Source of the DNA: Luteolibacter flavescens
Lineage (GTDB): Bacteria; Verrucomicrobiota; Verrucomicrobiia; Verrucomicrobiales; Akkermansiaceae
Assembly: GCF_025950085.1 (NCBI RefSeq)
Contig: NZ_JAPDDS010000005.1
Span: 124,001-188,000, forward strand
Reading direction: 5' to 3'
DNA length: 64,000 nt
The translations under genes were made by a program, and so were the position numbers. Shown piece by piece: positions 2,574-41,658 of this stretch. Under the pieces are notes generated by a model. The model was not told where the DNA came from. It saw only the letters and a program-made list of their open reading frames with translations, and searched no databases. How positions within the stretch are numbered: the stretch's first letter is position 1; each line of letters opens with the position of its first letter.

Positions 2574-3343
2574 GGGGATGTGCGGATGGCGCAGAGGATG
2601 CCGACGCCTGCCTGGCAGCCGTGGTGATTCCGCGCTGCTTCGGACTGCCAATCGACCTCCGGGTGCAGGCGCGTGGCGTCGTCCACCACGGCGAAGCGCT
2701 CGATCTGCCAGCCGTCGCGGAACCATCCGGTCACGGTGGAGGCGGCGAAGATGCGGTGGGCATTGAATTCCACGCGCTCCGGTCCGATGGGGGTGGAGAG
2801 GTAAAAGCGCCCGCCCGGCTTCACCATGCGCTTGAGTTGCTCGAGGCCCTTCAGGTGCCCCAGCGGATCGATGTCGTCACCGTAGCGGCCGAGGCCGAAG
2901 TGCTCGATGGTGTGCAGGCAGGAGAGCGAGTCCGTGCAGGCGATCCACTCGGGCGGCAGCTCCGCGGAAAGGTCCACCTGGTGGAAGCGCACATTCGGCA
3001 CCGCCACCGGCTGCGGGCGGATGTCCAGCACATCGACCTCGCGGAAGACGGCCAAGTGGCCGATGAAGCCGTCGAGCCGCGAGCCGACATCCACGTGGCG
3101 CTGCGGCTGATCTGTTAGAATCCACTTTGCGACTTGCAGGTCCTGGAAGAAGTAGGCGCCGAGGTGACCGGAGGACTCGCCGAATTCCGTCAGCATCGGC
3201 AAGTCATCGCCCAGCGGGATCGCGTCCGCTCCGGGCATGCCGCGATAGCGCTCGCGGTCGCGCGTGAAGCGCTGCCAGCCTGACACGGCGGTGGGAAAGC
3301 GCCGCGGGTCGAAGCCGGCGGCCCTGAGGATGGCTCGGATCAT
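2570..3343 (-). CDS. DUF268 family protein, methyltransferase-like
   Basis: The 257-residue protein matches the DUF268 pattern: YFFQDLQVAKWI, HVDVGSRLDGFIGHL, VDVLDIRP, SLSCLHTIEHFGLGRYGD, then a KPGG-RFYLSTPIG segment. The glycine-rich GSRLDGF and the LKRMVKPGG block resemble a degenerate Rossmann methyltransferase fold. The family is common in O-antigen and exopolysaccharide clusters, with no firmly established reaction that I know of. The ATG at 3343 overlaps the upstream stop (ATGA), so the longer in-frame extension into the upstream gene is rejected. It lies between a double glycosyltransferase and a sugar O-methyltransferase, suggesting glycan modification. Confidence 0.75.
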   Translation of the reverse strand: MIRAILRAAGFDPRRFPTAVSGWQRFTRDRERYRGMPGADAIPLGDDLPMLTEFGESSGHLGAYFFQDLQVAKWILTDQPQRHVDVGSRLDGFIGHLAVFREVDVLDIRPQPVAVPNVRFHQVDLSAELPPEWIACTDSLSCLHTIEHFGLGRYGDDIDPLGHLKGLEQLKRMVKPGGRFYLSTPIGPERVEFNAHRIFAASTVTGWFRDGWQIERFAVVDDATRLHPEVDWQSEAARNHHGCQAGVGILCAIRTSP

Positions 3344-5694
3344 GATCGTCGGTGGGTGCGGGCCAGCTCGTGGAAGACCGTGACCATGTGGTCCGCCACG
3401 ACGCGCGCGGAGTATCTTTCCCGCAGTGCCAGGCCCCATGCGCGCACTTGCTCCGGTGGCAGCGCGAGCACCTCGTCCAGCGCGCTGAAGAGGCTGGCCG
3501 GTTCGTCGAGACGGATGCCGCCGCGGCTTGCAGCATCGCCCAGCACTTCCTCGATCGAGGTGCCCAGCGTGAAGCAGACCGGCGTGCCGAGGAAGTAGGC
3601 CTCCACCGCGGGCAGGCCGAAGCCCTCGATCTCCGACGGGAAAATCAGCGCGCGCGCCCGCTCGAATTGCTGCTGCAGCTCCGCGTCATCGAGGAAGGGC
3701 AGGCGCTCCACCTGCGGGCAGGTTTTCGCGAGCTCCACCACTTCTTCCGGCATCCTGCCCACCACGTGCAGCTTCGGCAGGTCGGTGCGGGTGCGCGATG
3801 CCTCGGCCCACTGGCGGATCAGCCAGGCGGTGCGCTTGTGCGGCTCGCGCGAGCCGAGGTGCAGGACGTAGTTTTCCTTCTCCGGCGCGACCGGCTGTGG
3901 GACGCCCTCGTAGGTGCAGGGCTCGTAGGTCACGGTCACCGGCTTCGCGGGGATGCCGTGGCGCTCCATGAATCCCAGGATCTGCTCGCGCGCCGCTTCC
4001 GAGATCGTGAGGATGCCATCGGCGTGCCGCAGCGTGTGCTTCAGCATGTTCGCCCAGTAGCGGTACTCCATCTCCGTCCGCCACTCGGGATAGTGGTCCG
4101 CGTAGTACTGGATGATCGTGTCGTGGATGGTCACCGCGGACGGCGTGGCCATGGCATGCAGCCGCGGGAGGAAGCCCTTCGGGAAATAGAAGACACCCGG
4201 CGGATGGTCCTGCTGCCACAGCGGATGCAGGTGATCGGTCACCACCCGGGAAAATTTCCCGCGCGTGGTCCACGGCACCATCAGGGTCTCGGTGCCCGCC
4301 GGCATCTGCACGGACGAGCGCGAGGTGATGCCCTTCAGCCACAGGTCGCCGCGATCGGCCAGCTCCTTCAGCAGCACCTCGGTCATGCGGGAGATGCCGA
4401 GGCTTCGTCCAAGCTTCGGATTCTGGTCCGCCAGATAGACCTGCACGGTGAGCTTCGACGGAGCTTTGCGGACGTGGCCCGGGCCTTCCGCTAGGGACTC
4501 CAGCGTGGAGGTGATCGAGCGGCAGAAGTCCTTCCTGCCATAGCGGCTCAGGAAGGTCCCGCGGAGTTCCCGGTGGATCTCCATCCCGTCTCCGGCGAGG
4601 AGCGCGTCACAGCACCTGCGGAGCGCGTCGGAGAGAGCGGGCGCGTCGGCGACCGGGGCGAGGAATGGATAGCGCTCCGGCAGCACGCCCTGCACGCCGT
4701 CCGATGCCGCGGCCACGACCGCGAGCCCGGAGGCCATCGCCTCAGCCACCGTGAGGCCGAAGCTTTCCCAGCGGCTCGCTGCGATGAAGAGGTCGTGGCT
4801 CGCGAGGCAGTCGATCTTCTCGGCGCCCGTCACATAGCCCCTTTGCGTCACCGTCAGGCGCTGCGGGAAATTCCGCTCCAGCGATTGCAGGCGCTCGTCA
4901 AAGGACGTGCGGCACGCCGGCAGGATGCCGCCTGCGATGGTCAGGTCCATTTCCCAGGTCTGCGGCGCGGCGGCGAGGAAAAGCCCCACCGCATCCAGCA
5001 TGTCGAAGAGGCCCTTCTCCACCGTGCCCACCGACATGTAGAGCGCGCGGAAGCGCGGGCTCGACTCGCCGACCAGCTCACGGGTGCGCACCTCGCGCTC
5101 GGCGGCGATCTTCTCCGCTGTCGCCTCGCACGGGTCCTCAATCCCGTTGTAGATCAGCTCCGAGGACTTCGAGTCGATGACCTCGGCGTCCTTCGTGGAA
5201 TGTGGTGTCAGGACGATGGACAGGGCGGGCGACTCCAGCACCCGCGCGCTGATCCGCCGGGCGATCCGGTCCAGCCACTTCGGCCCCGGCAGCTTCAGAC
5301 GATCCGAGCCGTGCGCCCATTCGCCATGTCCGATGGCGTGCCAGTGAAATGCGACCTGATGGTAAAAGGGCCGCAGGCAGCCGAGCACCAGCCAGTCCCG
5401 CAGCACCGCGCTCCACCGCACCGGGCCGGGCACGTAGTAGAGCACCCGCGGGCGGTGGCGCATCCAGAGGTAGAGCGCGCGCGTGATGAAGTCTCCCAGG
5501 CGCGCGAACTTCGTCCAGTTCGTGCCGCCGATGTCCTCCATCGTATCGGAGAAGCGCGCATTCACGTGATGCACCTCCAGTTCCGGTGTCTCCTCGCGCA
5601 GGCCATCCAGCATGAGCTTCACCATGCGGCTCTGCCCGTGCTCCGGCGGTGGGACCTGGGCGAAGACGACGATGCTGGGTGACTCGGACGGCAC
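3340..5694 (-). CDS. Double glycosyltransferase (two GT4 domains fused)
   Basis: The 784-residue protein has two consecutive GT4 (GT-B fold) units. The first, about residues 1-395, begins IVVFAQVPPPEHGQSRM and ends with the donor-site block SRWESFGLTVAEAMASG. The second, about 410-784, begins VQVYLADQNPKLGRSLGISRM, has VLHLGSREPHKRT as the start of its C-terminal lobe, and ends with the donor-site block SEIEGFGLPAVEAYFLGTP. Each E-x7-E type motif looks intact, so both halves may be active and add two sugars in succession. Typical single GT4 enzymes are 350-420 residues. It overlaps the DUF268 gene by 4 nt. Donors and acceptors are unknown. Confidence 0.85.
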   Translation of the reverse strand: MPSESPSIVVFAQVPPPEHGQSRMVKLMLDGLREETPELEVHHVNARFSDTMEDIGGTNWTKFARLGDFITRALYLWMRHRPRVLYYVPGPVRWSAVLRDWLVLGCLRPFYHQVAFHWHAIGHGEWAHGSDRLKLPGPKWLDRIARRISARVLESPALSIVLTPHSTKDAEVIDSKSSELIYNGIEDPCEATAEKIAAEREVRTRELVGESSPRFRALYMSVGTVEKGLFDMLDAVGLFLAAAPQTWEMDLTIAGGILPACRTSFDERLQSLERNFPQRLTVTQRGYVTGAEKIDCLASHDLFIAASRWESFGLTVAEAMASGLAVVAAASDGVQGVLPERYPFLAPVADAPALSDALRRCCDALLAGDGMEIHRELRGTFLSRYGRKDFCRSITSTLESLAEGPGHVRKAPSKLTVQVYLADQNPKLGRSLGISRMTEVLLKELADRGDLWLKGITSRSSVQMPAGTETLMVPWTTRGKFSRVVTDHLHPLWQQDHPPGVFYFPKGFLPRLHAMATPSAVTIHDTIIQYYADHYPEWRTEMEYRYWANMLKHTLRHADGILTISEAAREQILGFMERHGIPAKPVTVTYEPCTYEGVPQPVAPEKENYVLHLGSREPHKRTAWLIRQWAEASRTRTDLPKLHVVGRMPEEVVELAKTCPQVERLPFLDDAELQQQFERARALIFPSEIEGFGLPAVEAYFLGTPVCFTLGTSIEEVLGDAASRGGIRLDEPASLFSALDEVLALPPEQVRAWGLALRERYSARVVADHMVTVFHELARTHRRS

Positions 5695-39355: not shown

Positions 39356-40600
39356 TCAGATGATCATCCCCGCGGCGACCGTTTCATTGGTGCCGGGATC
39401 GACCAGGATGAAGGAACCGGTCTGGCGGTTCCGGCGATACGAGTCGTGGATCACCGGCTGCGCGGTGCGCAGGGTGATGCGGCCGACGTCGTTCATCGCG
39501 AAGGTCTCGGCACCCTCGATCTTGTGCAGCGTGTTGATGTCCACGAGGTACTTCACCTCGCTGATGATCGCCTGCATCTCGCGGGAGGTGTGGCGCAGGA
39601 TCACCTTGGCACGGGAGGCCATCGGCTTGTTCGAGAACCAGCAGATCATCGCCTCGATGTCCTGCGAGCTCTGCGGCGGGTTGTTCTTTTTGACGATCAT
39701 GTCGCCGCGCGAGATGTCGATCTCGTCGGTCAGCGTGAGCGTCACGCTCTGGGGGGCGAAGGCTTCGTCGATGTTCCCGTCGGCGGTGTGGATCGTCTTG
39801 ATCCGCGAGGTGAAGCCGGAGGGCAGCACGGTGATCTCGTCGCCGGGCTTGAAGACGCCGCCGGCCACGCGGCCGGCATAGCCGCGGAAATCGTGCCACT
39901 CGTCGCTCTGCGGGCGGATCACCCACTGCACGGGGAAGCGGGCATCGACGTGGTTTTCCTCGCCGCCGACATAGACGTGCTCGAGATGGTAGAGCAGCGA
40001 GGGGCCCTGGTACCACGGCATGCTCGTGGACTTGTCCACCACGTTGTCGCCATTCAGCGCGGAGATCGGGATCGGCGTGATGTCCACGATGTTGTCCAGG
40101 CGCGAGGCGAATTCCTGGTAGTCCTTGATGATCTTCTCATAGACCTCCTCGGAGTACTCCACGAGGTCCATCTTGTTCACCGCCACCACGACGTGCTGGA
40201 TGCGCAGCAGGTTCGCGATGAAGCTGTGGCGCTTCGTCTGCTCGATCACGCCCTTGCGCGCGTCGATCAGGATGATGGCCAGGTTTGCCGTCGAGGCACC
40301 CGTGACCATGTTCCGCGTGTACTGGATGTGGCCCGGGGTATCGGCGATGATGAACTTGCGCTTCGGCGTGGCGAAGTAGCGGTAGGCTACGTCGATGGTG
40401 ATGCCTTGCTCGCGCTCGGCCTTCAGGCCGTCCGTCAGCAGTGCCAGGTCCACGTGGCCGTCACCGCGGCGCTTCGAGGTTTCCTCGATGGCCTCGAGCT
40501 GGTCCTCGAAGATCGACTTGGAATCATAAAGCAGGCGGCCGATGAGCGTGGATTTGCCGTCGTCAACGGAGCCGGCGGTGGTGAAACGGAGAAGGTCCAT
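39356..40600 (-). CDS. cysN: Sulfate adenylyltransferase subunit 1, GTPase
   Basis: The 414-residue protein has the EF-Tu-like GTPase motifs: G1 GSVDDGKST (10-18), G3 DTPGH (about 91-95) and G4 NKMD (about 146). Later come the beta-barrel domains ending TGSFILVDPGTNETVAAGMII. It activates sulfate to APS with CysD at the cost of GTP. It lacks a fused APS-kinase domain, and cysC is encoded separately nearby. A palindromic repeat separates it from cysD, and a terminator follows. Confidence 0.96.
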   Translation of the reverse strand: MDLLRFTTAGSVDDGKSTLIGRLLYDSKSIFEDQLEAIEETSKRRGDGHVDLALLTDGLKAEREQGITIDVAYRYFATPKRKFIIADTPGHIQYTRNMVTGASTANLAIILIDARKGVIEQTKRHSFIANLLRIQHVVVAVNKMDLVEYSEEVYEKIIKDYQEFASRLDNIVDITPIPISALNGDNVVDKSTSMPWYQGPSLLYHLEHVYVGGEENHVDARFPVQWVIRPQSDEWHDFRGYAGRVAGGVFKPGDEITVLPSGFTSRIKTIHTADGNIDEAFAPQSVTLTLTDEIDISRGDMIVKKNNPPQSSQDIEAMICWFSNKPMASRAKVILRHTSREMQAIISEVKYLVDINTLHKIEGAETFAMNDVGRITLRTAQPVIHDSYRRNRQTGSFILVDPGTNETVAAGMII

Positions 40601-40615
40601 GGAAGGAAAGGCAGG

Positions 40616-40750
40616 GTGCCGGGTGATCGGTGAGCAGTGATCAGTGGCAGAAGGTTGAAATGATTCGGGCGAGGGACGTGTGTTCGGTCGAAGAAAGTGC
40701 AGCGGAATCGGAGCTCAAACACTGATCACCGATCACTGATCACTCGGCAC
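40616..40750. repeat. 135-bp palindromic element with 31-bp terminal inverted repeats
   Basis: Positions 40616-40646 and 40720-40750 are inverted repeats, 27 of 31 matching, built from GTGATC/GATCAC units (the right arm contains GATCACC GATCACT GATCACT). The 73-nt core has no coding sense. The element fills the cysD-cysN gap almost exactly (cysN starts at 40600, cysD ends at 40753). It looks like a REP/MITE-type element and could form a long RNA hairpin in the cysD-cysN transcript. Its origin is inference. Confidence 0.75.
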
Positions 40751-40752
40751 TT

Positions 40753-41658
40753 TTAGAAGTATCCCTCCTTCTTCCGGTCCTCCATCGCGGTTTCGGAGCG
40801 CTTGTCGTCGGCGCGATTGCCGCGCTCGGTCTGGCGGGCGGCGGCGACTTCCTCGATGATCTTTTCCATCGTGTCGGCGGTGGATTCCACGGCGCCGGTG
40901 ATGGTGGCGTCACCCATGGTGCGGAAGCGGATCACCTTCTTCTCGACCACCTCGCCATCGCGCGGTTGGACGAATTCGCTCACGGCGAGGATGGTGCCGT
41001 TGCGGGTCACGGTCTCGCGCTCGTGGGCGTAGTAGAGGCTCGGCAGCACGATGCCCTCGCGGTGCATGTACATCCAGATGTCCATCTCCGTGAAATTCGA
41101 CAGCGGGAAGACGCGGAAGTGCTCGCCCGGGTGCTTGCGGCCGTTGAAGAGATTCCACAGCTCGGGGCGCTGGTTCTTCGGGTCCCACTGGCCGAAGTCG
41201 TCGCGGTGGGAGAAAAAGCGCTCCTTCGCGCGGGCCTTTTCCTCGTCGCGGCGGCCGCCGCCGAGCAGCGCGTCGAATTGATACTCGGCGATGGTGTCGA
41301 GCAGCGTCGTCGTCTGCGCGCGGTTGCGGGAGGCATTCGGTCCCTTCTCTTCGACCACGCGGCCGTCATCGATGGACTTCTGTACCGAGCCGACCACCAG
41401 GCGGGCATCCAGCTTCGCGGCGAATTCGTCGCGGTAGGTGATGGTCTCCGGGAAATTGTGGCCCGTATCGACGTGCACCAGCGGGAAAGGCATGCGTGCG
41501 GGGTGGAAGGCCTTGCGGGCGATCCAGGCCATCACGATCGAGTCCTTGCCGCCTGAGAAAAGCAGGCCGGGATTCTGGAACTGCGCCGCGGTCTCGCGGA
41601 GGACGAAGATCGCCTCGGCTTCGATCTGGTCGAGGTGGGAGAGCTGGTAGTTGGGCAT
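40753..41658 (-). CDS. cysD: Sulfate adenylyltransferase subunit 2
   Basis: The 301-residue PP-loop protein has SGGKDSIVM (35-43) for ATP binding, LVHVDTGHNFPET, and the GGGRRDEEKARAKERFFSHRD and FNGRKHPGEHFRVFPLSNFT blocks of CysD in the usual order (first block quoted as GGGRRDEEKARAKER). Its C-terminus (RKKEGYF) is the conserved CysD end. With CysN it forms APS from ATP and sulfate. No sulfite-making reductase genes are nearby, so the APS is probably meant for PAPS and sulfation. Confidence 0.97.
   Translation of the reverse strand: MPNYQLSHLDQIEAEAIFVLRETAAQFQNPGLLFSGGKDSIVMAWIARKAFHPARMPFPLVHVDTGHNFPETITYRDEFAAKLDARLVVGSVQKSIDDGRVVEEKGPNASRNRAQTTTLLDTIAEYQFDALLGGGRRDEEKARAKERFFSHRDDFGQWDPKNQRPELWNLFNGRKHPGEHFRVFPLSNFTEMDIWMYMHREGIVLPSLYYAHERETVTRNGTILAVSEFVQPRDGEVVEKKVIRFRTMGDATITGAVESTADTMEKIIEEVAAARQTERGNRADDKRSETAMEDRKKEGYF

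Follow-up and report, generated by a model that had tools for sequence, protein, structure and literature searches.

What is the 135-bp palindrome between cysD and cysN of Luteolibacter flavescens, a fixed structure that serves the two genes or an element that came to rest there? The initial annotation, made from the letters of a 64,000-nucleotide stretch of this genome (contig NZ_JAPDDS010000005.1, positions 124,001 to 188,000; hereafter the window), had called the palindrome MITE/REP-like and had offered both answers, a hairpin that adjusts the CysD:CysN ratio and a non-autonomous mobile element. The question was pursued by comparing the palindrome with the rest of the genome, with the same gap in the genus, and with repeats of similar build elsewhere.

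Anatomy of the palindrome

The two arms of the palindrome are inverted, measure 31 nt each as originally described, and are complementary at 27 of 31 positions, with 73 nt between them (Table 1). That they are made of heptamers was likewise confirmed: each arm consists of a GTGCCGR unit, three GTGATCR-type heptads and a final GTG, with one unit of arm 1 deviating (GTGAGCA). The palindrome had been said to occupy the gap exactly, which is nearly correct, as within the 152 bp that separate the two genes it leaves 2 bp free on the cysD side and 15 bp on the cysN side. The long hairpin foreseen for the cysD-cysN mRNA was recovered as a predicted fold of the mRNA (−) strand with an energy of -62.6 kcal/mol (z -6.84), which none of 200 shuffles equaled; the palindrome is therefore beyond chance. 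Searching positions 40300-41000 against Rfam returned two matches, both below threshold.

Table 1. The palindrome and its flanking genes (positions in the window).
Feature	Position	Strand	Description
Arm 1	40616..40646	+	GTGCCGG head and heptads; head faces the cysN start codon; 3′ arm of the predicted mRNA stem
Spacer	40647..40719		73 nt; too short for an IVP gene
Arm 2	40720..40750	-	GTGCCGA head and heptads; head faces the cysD stop codon; 5′ arm of the predicted mRNA stem
cysD	40753..41658	-	Sulfate adenylyltransferase small subunit; upstream gene; stop at 40753; NCBIfam CysD, 449 bits
cysN	39356..40600	-	Sulfate adenylyltransferase large subunit; downstream gene; ATG at 40600; NCBIfam CysN, 609 bits

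Copies of the arms in the genome and the genus

No second copy was found in the window, in agreement with the initial annotation; copies lie elsewhere in the genome. When the 135 bp were compared by BLAST with the whole genome, the arms matched at many places; the spacer, besides itself, gave only weak short matches (the strongest covering 35 nt at 77% identity, E 2.4). Thirteen places in the genome, the window among them, contain the exact double heptad; the reversed pattern, which served as control, has no match. Twenty loci, some with degenerate arrays, were inspected. Two gene-less inverted pairs were among them (the window and C5:56071-56212), and on contig C18 a further pair, whose arms start at 88574 and 89049 and are thus 475 bp apart, contains a gene. 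A regular expression called 20 arrays at the loci of this genome; after two called inside genes had been dropped, the remaining 18 of 18 lay between co-directional genes (compared with 103/145 gaps in general, p 0.004), a result that depends partly on the simple gene finder, because looser gene calls put 2 of the 20 loci (L009, L036) between divergent genes.

From other genomes of the genus, 46 arrays were sampled, of which 43 were usable once three inside genes had been dropped. Co-directional genes flanked 35 of these 43, and the head of the array was closer to a gene than its tail in 36/43 (p 9e-6); in L. flavescens, this was the case for 12/18 (p 0.24). Exact matches to GTGATCRGTGATCRGTG ranged from 0 (G004, G008) to 92 (G001) per genome of the genus, and the reversed control matched in 2 of 18 genomes (twice in G002, eight times in G016). 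Across the phylum, GTGATCRGTGATCRGTG was present in 18/288 genomes and the reversed pattern in 6/288. One genome of this set, G184, is full of GTGRCTA heptads and matched the reversed control 192 times. As a separate observation, contigs C23, C25, C29, and C35 of G001 (L120-L124) carry islands of small genes in which a composite repeat recurs many times, in one orientation per contig. This repeat reads GTGCCGG(GTGATCR)n GTGAAAGGCAT; repeats of the CGCGGAGG and CGCCAAGA types come next in the copies displayed that far.

The cysD-cysN gap in relatives

A lack of further genomic copies together with a conserved sequence in relatives had been named as the outcome that would argue for a fixed structure. 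The outcome was the opposite: there are copies, and the site differs among relatives, which argues against a fixed regulatory structure. The cysN gene was located in 17 of the 18 genomes, and 16 cysD-cysN gaps could be read (that of G011 was unreadable, and G015 gave no match). With arm classes assigned by eye, 10 of the 16 gaps contain an inverted pair, composed of GTGATCR heptads in L. flavescens, G005, G006, G013, and G014 and of other or degenerate heptads in G002, G007, G012, G016, and G017; two have a single arm (G008, G009) and four none (G001, G003, G004, G010). In L. flavescens, G014, and G006, the spacers are 73 nt long and 64-71% identical (that of L. flavescens 64% to G014 and 70% to G006; shuffled 45-48%), and the aligned arms are 84-96% identical, which suggests that the element was probably inherited in common by these genomes. 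The spacers of G005 and G013 are other sequences, of 93 and 95 nt, with 50% mutual identity (shuffled 44%). In G017, the cysD-cysN gap measures 527 bp and contains a broken IVP gene in two frames (hmm positions 10-75 and 74-131). A similar mosaic was read by eye from the atpG-atpD gap across relatives, and the mosaics at both sites render a fixed regulatory element unlikely.

The proposal of a non-autonomous mobile element is plausible. The relatives' cysD-cysN gaps were too diverged for the ends of the element to be aligned, and neither an empty site nor a target duplication could be demonstrated among those compared, so that movement itself is something we infer. A tRNA was also considered in the gaps of G001 and G003 (L052, L055), which share a stretch that, judged by eye, looks like a tRNA-Thr fragment on the opposite strand; it was rejected, as ARAGORN found none.

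Association with IVP genes

The gene inside the inverted pair on C18 lies between nrdB and nrdA and encodes a 23S_rRNA_IVP protein (S23p, PF05635; 101.5 bits), in the following referred to as IVP. It is bounded on both sides by arms of the form GTGCCGG(GTGATCR)3GTG, to which arm 1 of the window is identical at 28/31 and 29/31 positions and arm 2 at 28/31 and 27/31. IVP genes were found in 15 of 18 genomes of the genus, as opposed to none of 14 control genomes.

Thirty IVP loci were fetched from the genus, and by eye many of them show inverted heptad arms of varied sequence. Under the first rule used to set gene starts, by which 22 of the 30 could be measured, the flanks reached an inverted-repeat score of at least 13 in 20/22 loci compared with 19/181 control genes (drawn from L. 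flavescens, G002, and G016), and a lag-7 score of at least 8 in 20/22 compared with 13/181. When starts were set by the domain, which covered 29 of the 30 genus loci and 28 of 29 loci from the phylum, lag-7 scores of at least 8 were obtained for 26/29 and 24/28, respectively, and lags of 5, 6, 8, 9, and 10 reached the lag-7 score in 0-6 IVP loci. Inverted scores of at least 13 were then obtained for only 18/29 and 19/28, which is weaker than under the first rule, the one under which the 181 controls were scored. Inverted pairing at IVP loci is less constant than the 7-nt periodicity.

IVP genes were co-directional with both neighbors in 26 of 28 cases (two loci at contig edges dropped), compared with 87/175 small genes (p 7.6e-6). 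They were found between nrdB and nrdA, argD and argF, livG and livF, metK and ahcY, pheS and pheT, and gyrB and gyrA, and in a gap before cas1; the names argF, livG, and livF rest on family and context, and the score of the LivG model falls short of its cut-off. Similarity among the IVP proteins follows the site of insertion, with a median identity of 74% within and 38% between sites (22 of the 30 rows, at four sites, with the 8 others left out); on the tree, two changes are required for the nrd group. Grouping by site suggests that these insertions are mostly old. Read by eye, the arms at the nrd site vary by species, with GTGATCR, TTTTCAG, GTAGAAA, and GGAAATA types, yet stay paired.

The association is not strict. 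G009 has 42 matches to the GTGATCR pattern and no IVP match, G008 has four IVP matches and no GTGATCR match, and over the 18 genomes the two correlate with a rho of only 0.46 (p 0.053). PF05635 is similar to Avd, a protein of diversity-generating retroelements (PMC10053308), and a reverse transcriptase acting in trans was considered as a partner. This candidate was discarded: no RVT_1 match was obtained in G003, G007, G012, and G017, all of which carry IVP, and G004 has four RVT_1 matches without an IVP or GTGATCR match.

A period of seven in gene gaps

Autocorrelation of sampled gene gaps at lags 7 and 14 resulted in z values of 14.9 and 9.1 for G016 and of 5.1 and 4.1 for G002; those of L. 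flavescens were only 1.0 and 0.2, and its gaps accordingly have no peak at these lags. In G016, period-7 segments of many unrelated heptads were present in 20 of 205 gaps and in none after shuffling, and periods of 5, 6, 8, 9, and 10 were found in 3-10 gaps each. A stop codon in all frames, which a unit of seven could provide (7 = 1 modulo 3), was considered as the cause of the heptads and rejected; it fits GTGATCA, and the stop codons of several upstream genes lie within an array, but stop-free heptads (GTGCTTT, TCCGACC) are also arrayed, so the rule is not general. At one locus of G002 (L154, ∼2900-3950, on C1), a Y1 transposase gene (2863342-2863686) has long multi-heptad arrays and palindromic REP-like repeats on both flanks.

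IVP genes and heptads beyond the genus

IVP was present in 140 of 194 genomes of the phylum. Outside it, a Microcystis record contains an IVP gene between two genes (named hlyD and acrB by reading), with arms of GTGATCA and GTTATCA types. From 38 plasmid records with an IVP match, 12 loci were fetched, 10 of them cyanobacterial; the flanks had a lag-7 score of at least 8 in 9/12 and an inverted score of at least 13 in 8/12. A Calothrix locus (L416) reached neither score and has no arms, a Picosynechococcus locus (L421) reached the inverted score only, a Pseudanabaena locus (L417) has arms in the same orientation rather than inverted, and the boundaries of a Gemmatirosa gene (L419) could not be set. 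Three plasmid IVP genes (L416, L423, L424) are opposite to both neighbors, and in Nostoc edaphicum, IVP sits on the opposite strand between the genes of two ribonucleotide reductase subunits. The IVP gene of Azospirillum lipoferum is located in a 23S rRNA gene (1514 bits) and thus marks a true rRNA intervening sequence (IVS), with inverted heptad arms of 36 nt matching at 31/36 positions. In four cases (L417, L420, L421, L381), IVP was seen within CRISPR-cas runs, namely, twice between cas6 and cas4, once between cmr2 and cmr3, and once before cas1; IVP genes in cas loci have been reported earlier (PMC3936711). The exact string (GTGATCA)4 occurs in many phyla (at least 120 stretches); among 80 listed loci, only four hold an IVP gene, two of them within 400 bp of the array.

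Discussion

The 135-bp palindrome is likely to belong to a family of small parasitic elements, as a gene-less form that is either non-autonomous or decayed. Judged by the sequences compared, such an element would be composed of an inverted heptad arm, a gene for the S23/IVP four-helix bundle, and a second inverted heptad arm, which is the anatomy of the 23S rRNA IVS; its members appear to occupy short gaps between co-directional protein genes, unlike the IVS in 23S rRNA genes. The anatomy, the copies, the variability of the site, and the association with IVP were established from the DNA itself. The window copy has no S23p/IVP gene, its spacer being 73 nt long, which counts against reading it as an IVP element. 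Many known 23S rRNA IVS are without this gene.

In the mechanism envisaged, cysD and cysN would be co-transcribed, and the arms are predicted to pair into a stem within their mRNA. RNase III would cut this stem, by analogy with rRNA IVS, and the cut would render the insert harmless and separate the two messages; an effect on the CysD:CysN ratio, if any, would be a by-product. The element may once have spread with help from the IVP protein or another copier, the IVP gene would have been lost from the window copy, and the heptads presumably turn over while the two arms remain paired. The order of events could also be the reverse, with IVP genes landing in pre-existing heptad hairpins.

Three other explanations were weighed against that of a gene-less IVP element. 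A fixed regulatory hairpin, tuning the CysD:CysN ratio through mRNA processing, would account for the strong fold predicted on the mRNA strand, for the orthologous element in L. flavescens, G014, and G006, and for the inverted pairs seen by eye in most of the readable gaps. It fits poorly with the six gaps of 16 that are armless or one-armed, with heptad sequences that vary among species, and with the same arm type at many unrelated loci; moreover, in L. flavescens, one unit of the 3′ arm, TGCTCAC, is unpaired with its partner unit and uncompensated. We regard this explanation as highly improbable. Hardly more credence can be given to a classical DNA-transposon MITE, or a REP/REPIN mobilized by RAYT, unrelated to IVP. 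Terminal inverted repeats of 31 nt and copies dispersed in gene gaps as singles and inverted pairs are what MITEs and REPINs (PMC3116915) would present, the genomes contain 2-28 Y1 transposases each, and 2 of 12 Y1-transposase loci have 7-periodic flanks, which also counts against the link to IVP. On the other hand, none of the three Y1 loci of L. flavescens carries arms within 1.5 kb, for which reason the palindrome does not behave as an ordinary REP; the numbers of arrays and of Y1 genes are not significantly correlated (rho 0.29, p 0.24); no arm-flanked transposase gene was seen among the Y1 and reverse transcriptase families covered; and REP families leave unexplained why arms at different sites agree in their period of 7 and differ in sequence. 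Of the MITE/REP-like label, the dispersed inverted-repeat element thus stands; the affiliation with ordinary REPs is not supported, and the class of arms includes members that bear an IVP gene.

Slippage of the polymerase could likewise give rise to heptamer microsatellites, which would persist wherever coding and translation allow, with inverted pairs arising from fold-back copying. The many unrelated heptads in the gaps of a single genome (G016), arrays that expand, as in repeated GTGCCGA units, and the spread of (GTGATCA)4 through many phyla, mostly without an IVP gene nearby, are in line with this. However, it explains neither the inverted pairing around IVP genes nor the head-outward orientation in the genus sample, nor the recurrence at many loci of nearly identical 31-nt arms headed by GTGCCGG, and we consider it unlikely.

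A broader and more tentative reading may be proposed, for which we claim rather less than an even chance. The scattered heptamers of bacterial gene gaps (GTGATCA, GGGNATC, TAACTGA, and others) would largely be arms or footprints of one parasitic class, operon-dwelling IVS that encode the pentameric S23/IVP ring. The period of 7 would be set by the way in which the arms are read or copied by the IVP protein or a partner; the sequence of the arms could then drift freely, both arms together, and excision from mRNA would silence the insertion, opening essential operons to the elements (IVP in gyrB-gyrA, pheS-pheT, and nrdB-nrdA) or to gene-less arms (atpG-atpD, cysD-cysN). This would join two old puzzles, the role of the S23/IVP protein and the abundance of tandem heptamers in bacterial gene gaps; if IVP genes and heptad arms are one silent element of essential operons, both become testable. 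The IVP genes in cas loci (those of PMC3936711) would then be insertions into operon gaps and not parts of immunity. A parasitic element with such arms has until now been known mainly from inside rRNA genes and is little studied; our search of the open-access literature brought up no report recognized as connecting IVP genes with heptad arms in the gaps of operons, and six doubled-heptad strings of the repeats had no match there.

Comparison with known systems

The GGGNATC repeats of Xanthomonas and Nostoc (PMC4692102) resemble the arrays described here in having 7-nt units, singly or as inverted pairs, between aligned genes, and in that the G-rich strand has its 5′ end close to a gene and stop codons are overlapped. 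The arrays share the placement of these Rehm-type heptamers (tandem units of 7 nt, aligned genes, 5′ end beside a gene). The GGGNATC repeats differ in sequence and in their G4 potential, and no IVP link is drawn in the part of that report considered here; the arms of the palindrome have a GTGCC head, and their GTGATCR units contain no G-run of the GGGNATC kind and thus do not qualify for a G-quadruplex. The TAACTGA repeats of Beggiatoaceae (PMC4679880) are also intergenic heptads, located just 5′ of start codons and occurring across distant groups, but comprise 169 direct sets and one inverted set and were proposed to be protein-binding sites. REP/REPIN sequences with RAYT (PMC3116915) are similar as short units that occur singly and as inverted doublets in gene gaps and are predicted to form hairpins. 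They differ in that arms are absent from all three RAYT-type loci of L. flavescens and that the unit here is a heptad array; REP ends carry a GTAG or CGTC tag (PMC3733652), and the head of the palindrome reads GTGCCG. With MITEs, the palindrome shares terminal inverted repeats and dispersed copies.

Closest are the 23S rRNA IVS of Leptospira and Coxiella (PMC4990558), which have stem-forming terminal inverted repeats, an S23p gene in the full form, and tandem heptamers in common with the family proposed here. In that of Coxiella, the terminal stem measures 28 bp and three heptamers in tandem adjoin the S23p start; RNase III cuts this IVS in vitro (PMC4990558). The palindrome has the corresponding stem of terminal inverted repeats, and cutting by RNase III is suggested for it by analogy. 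It is located between the protein genes cysD and cysN and not in an rRNA gene, and is gene-less; because it is not a 23S rRNA IVS by location and lacks the gene, it is placed as a variant of the IVS kind.
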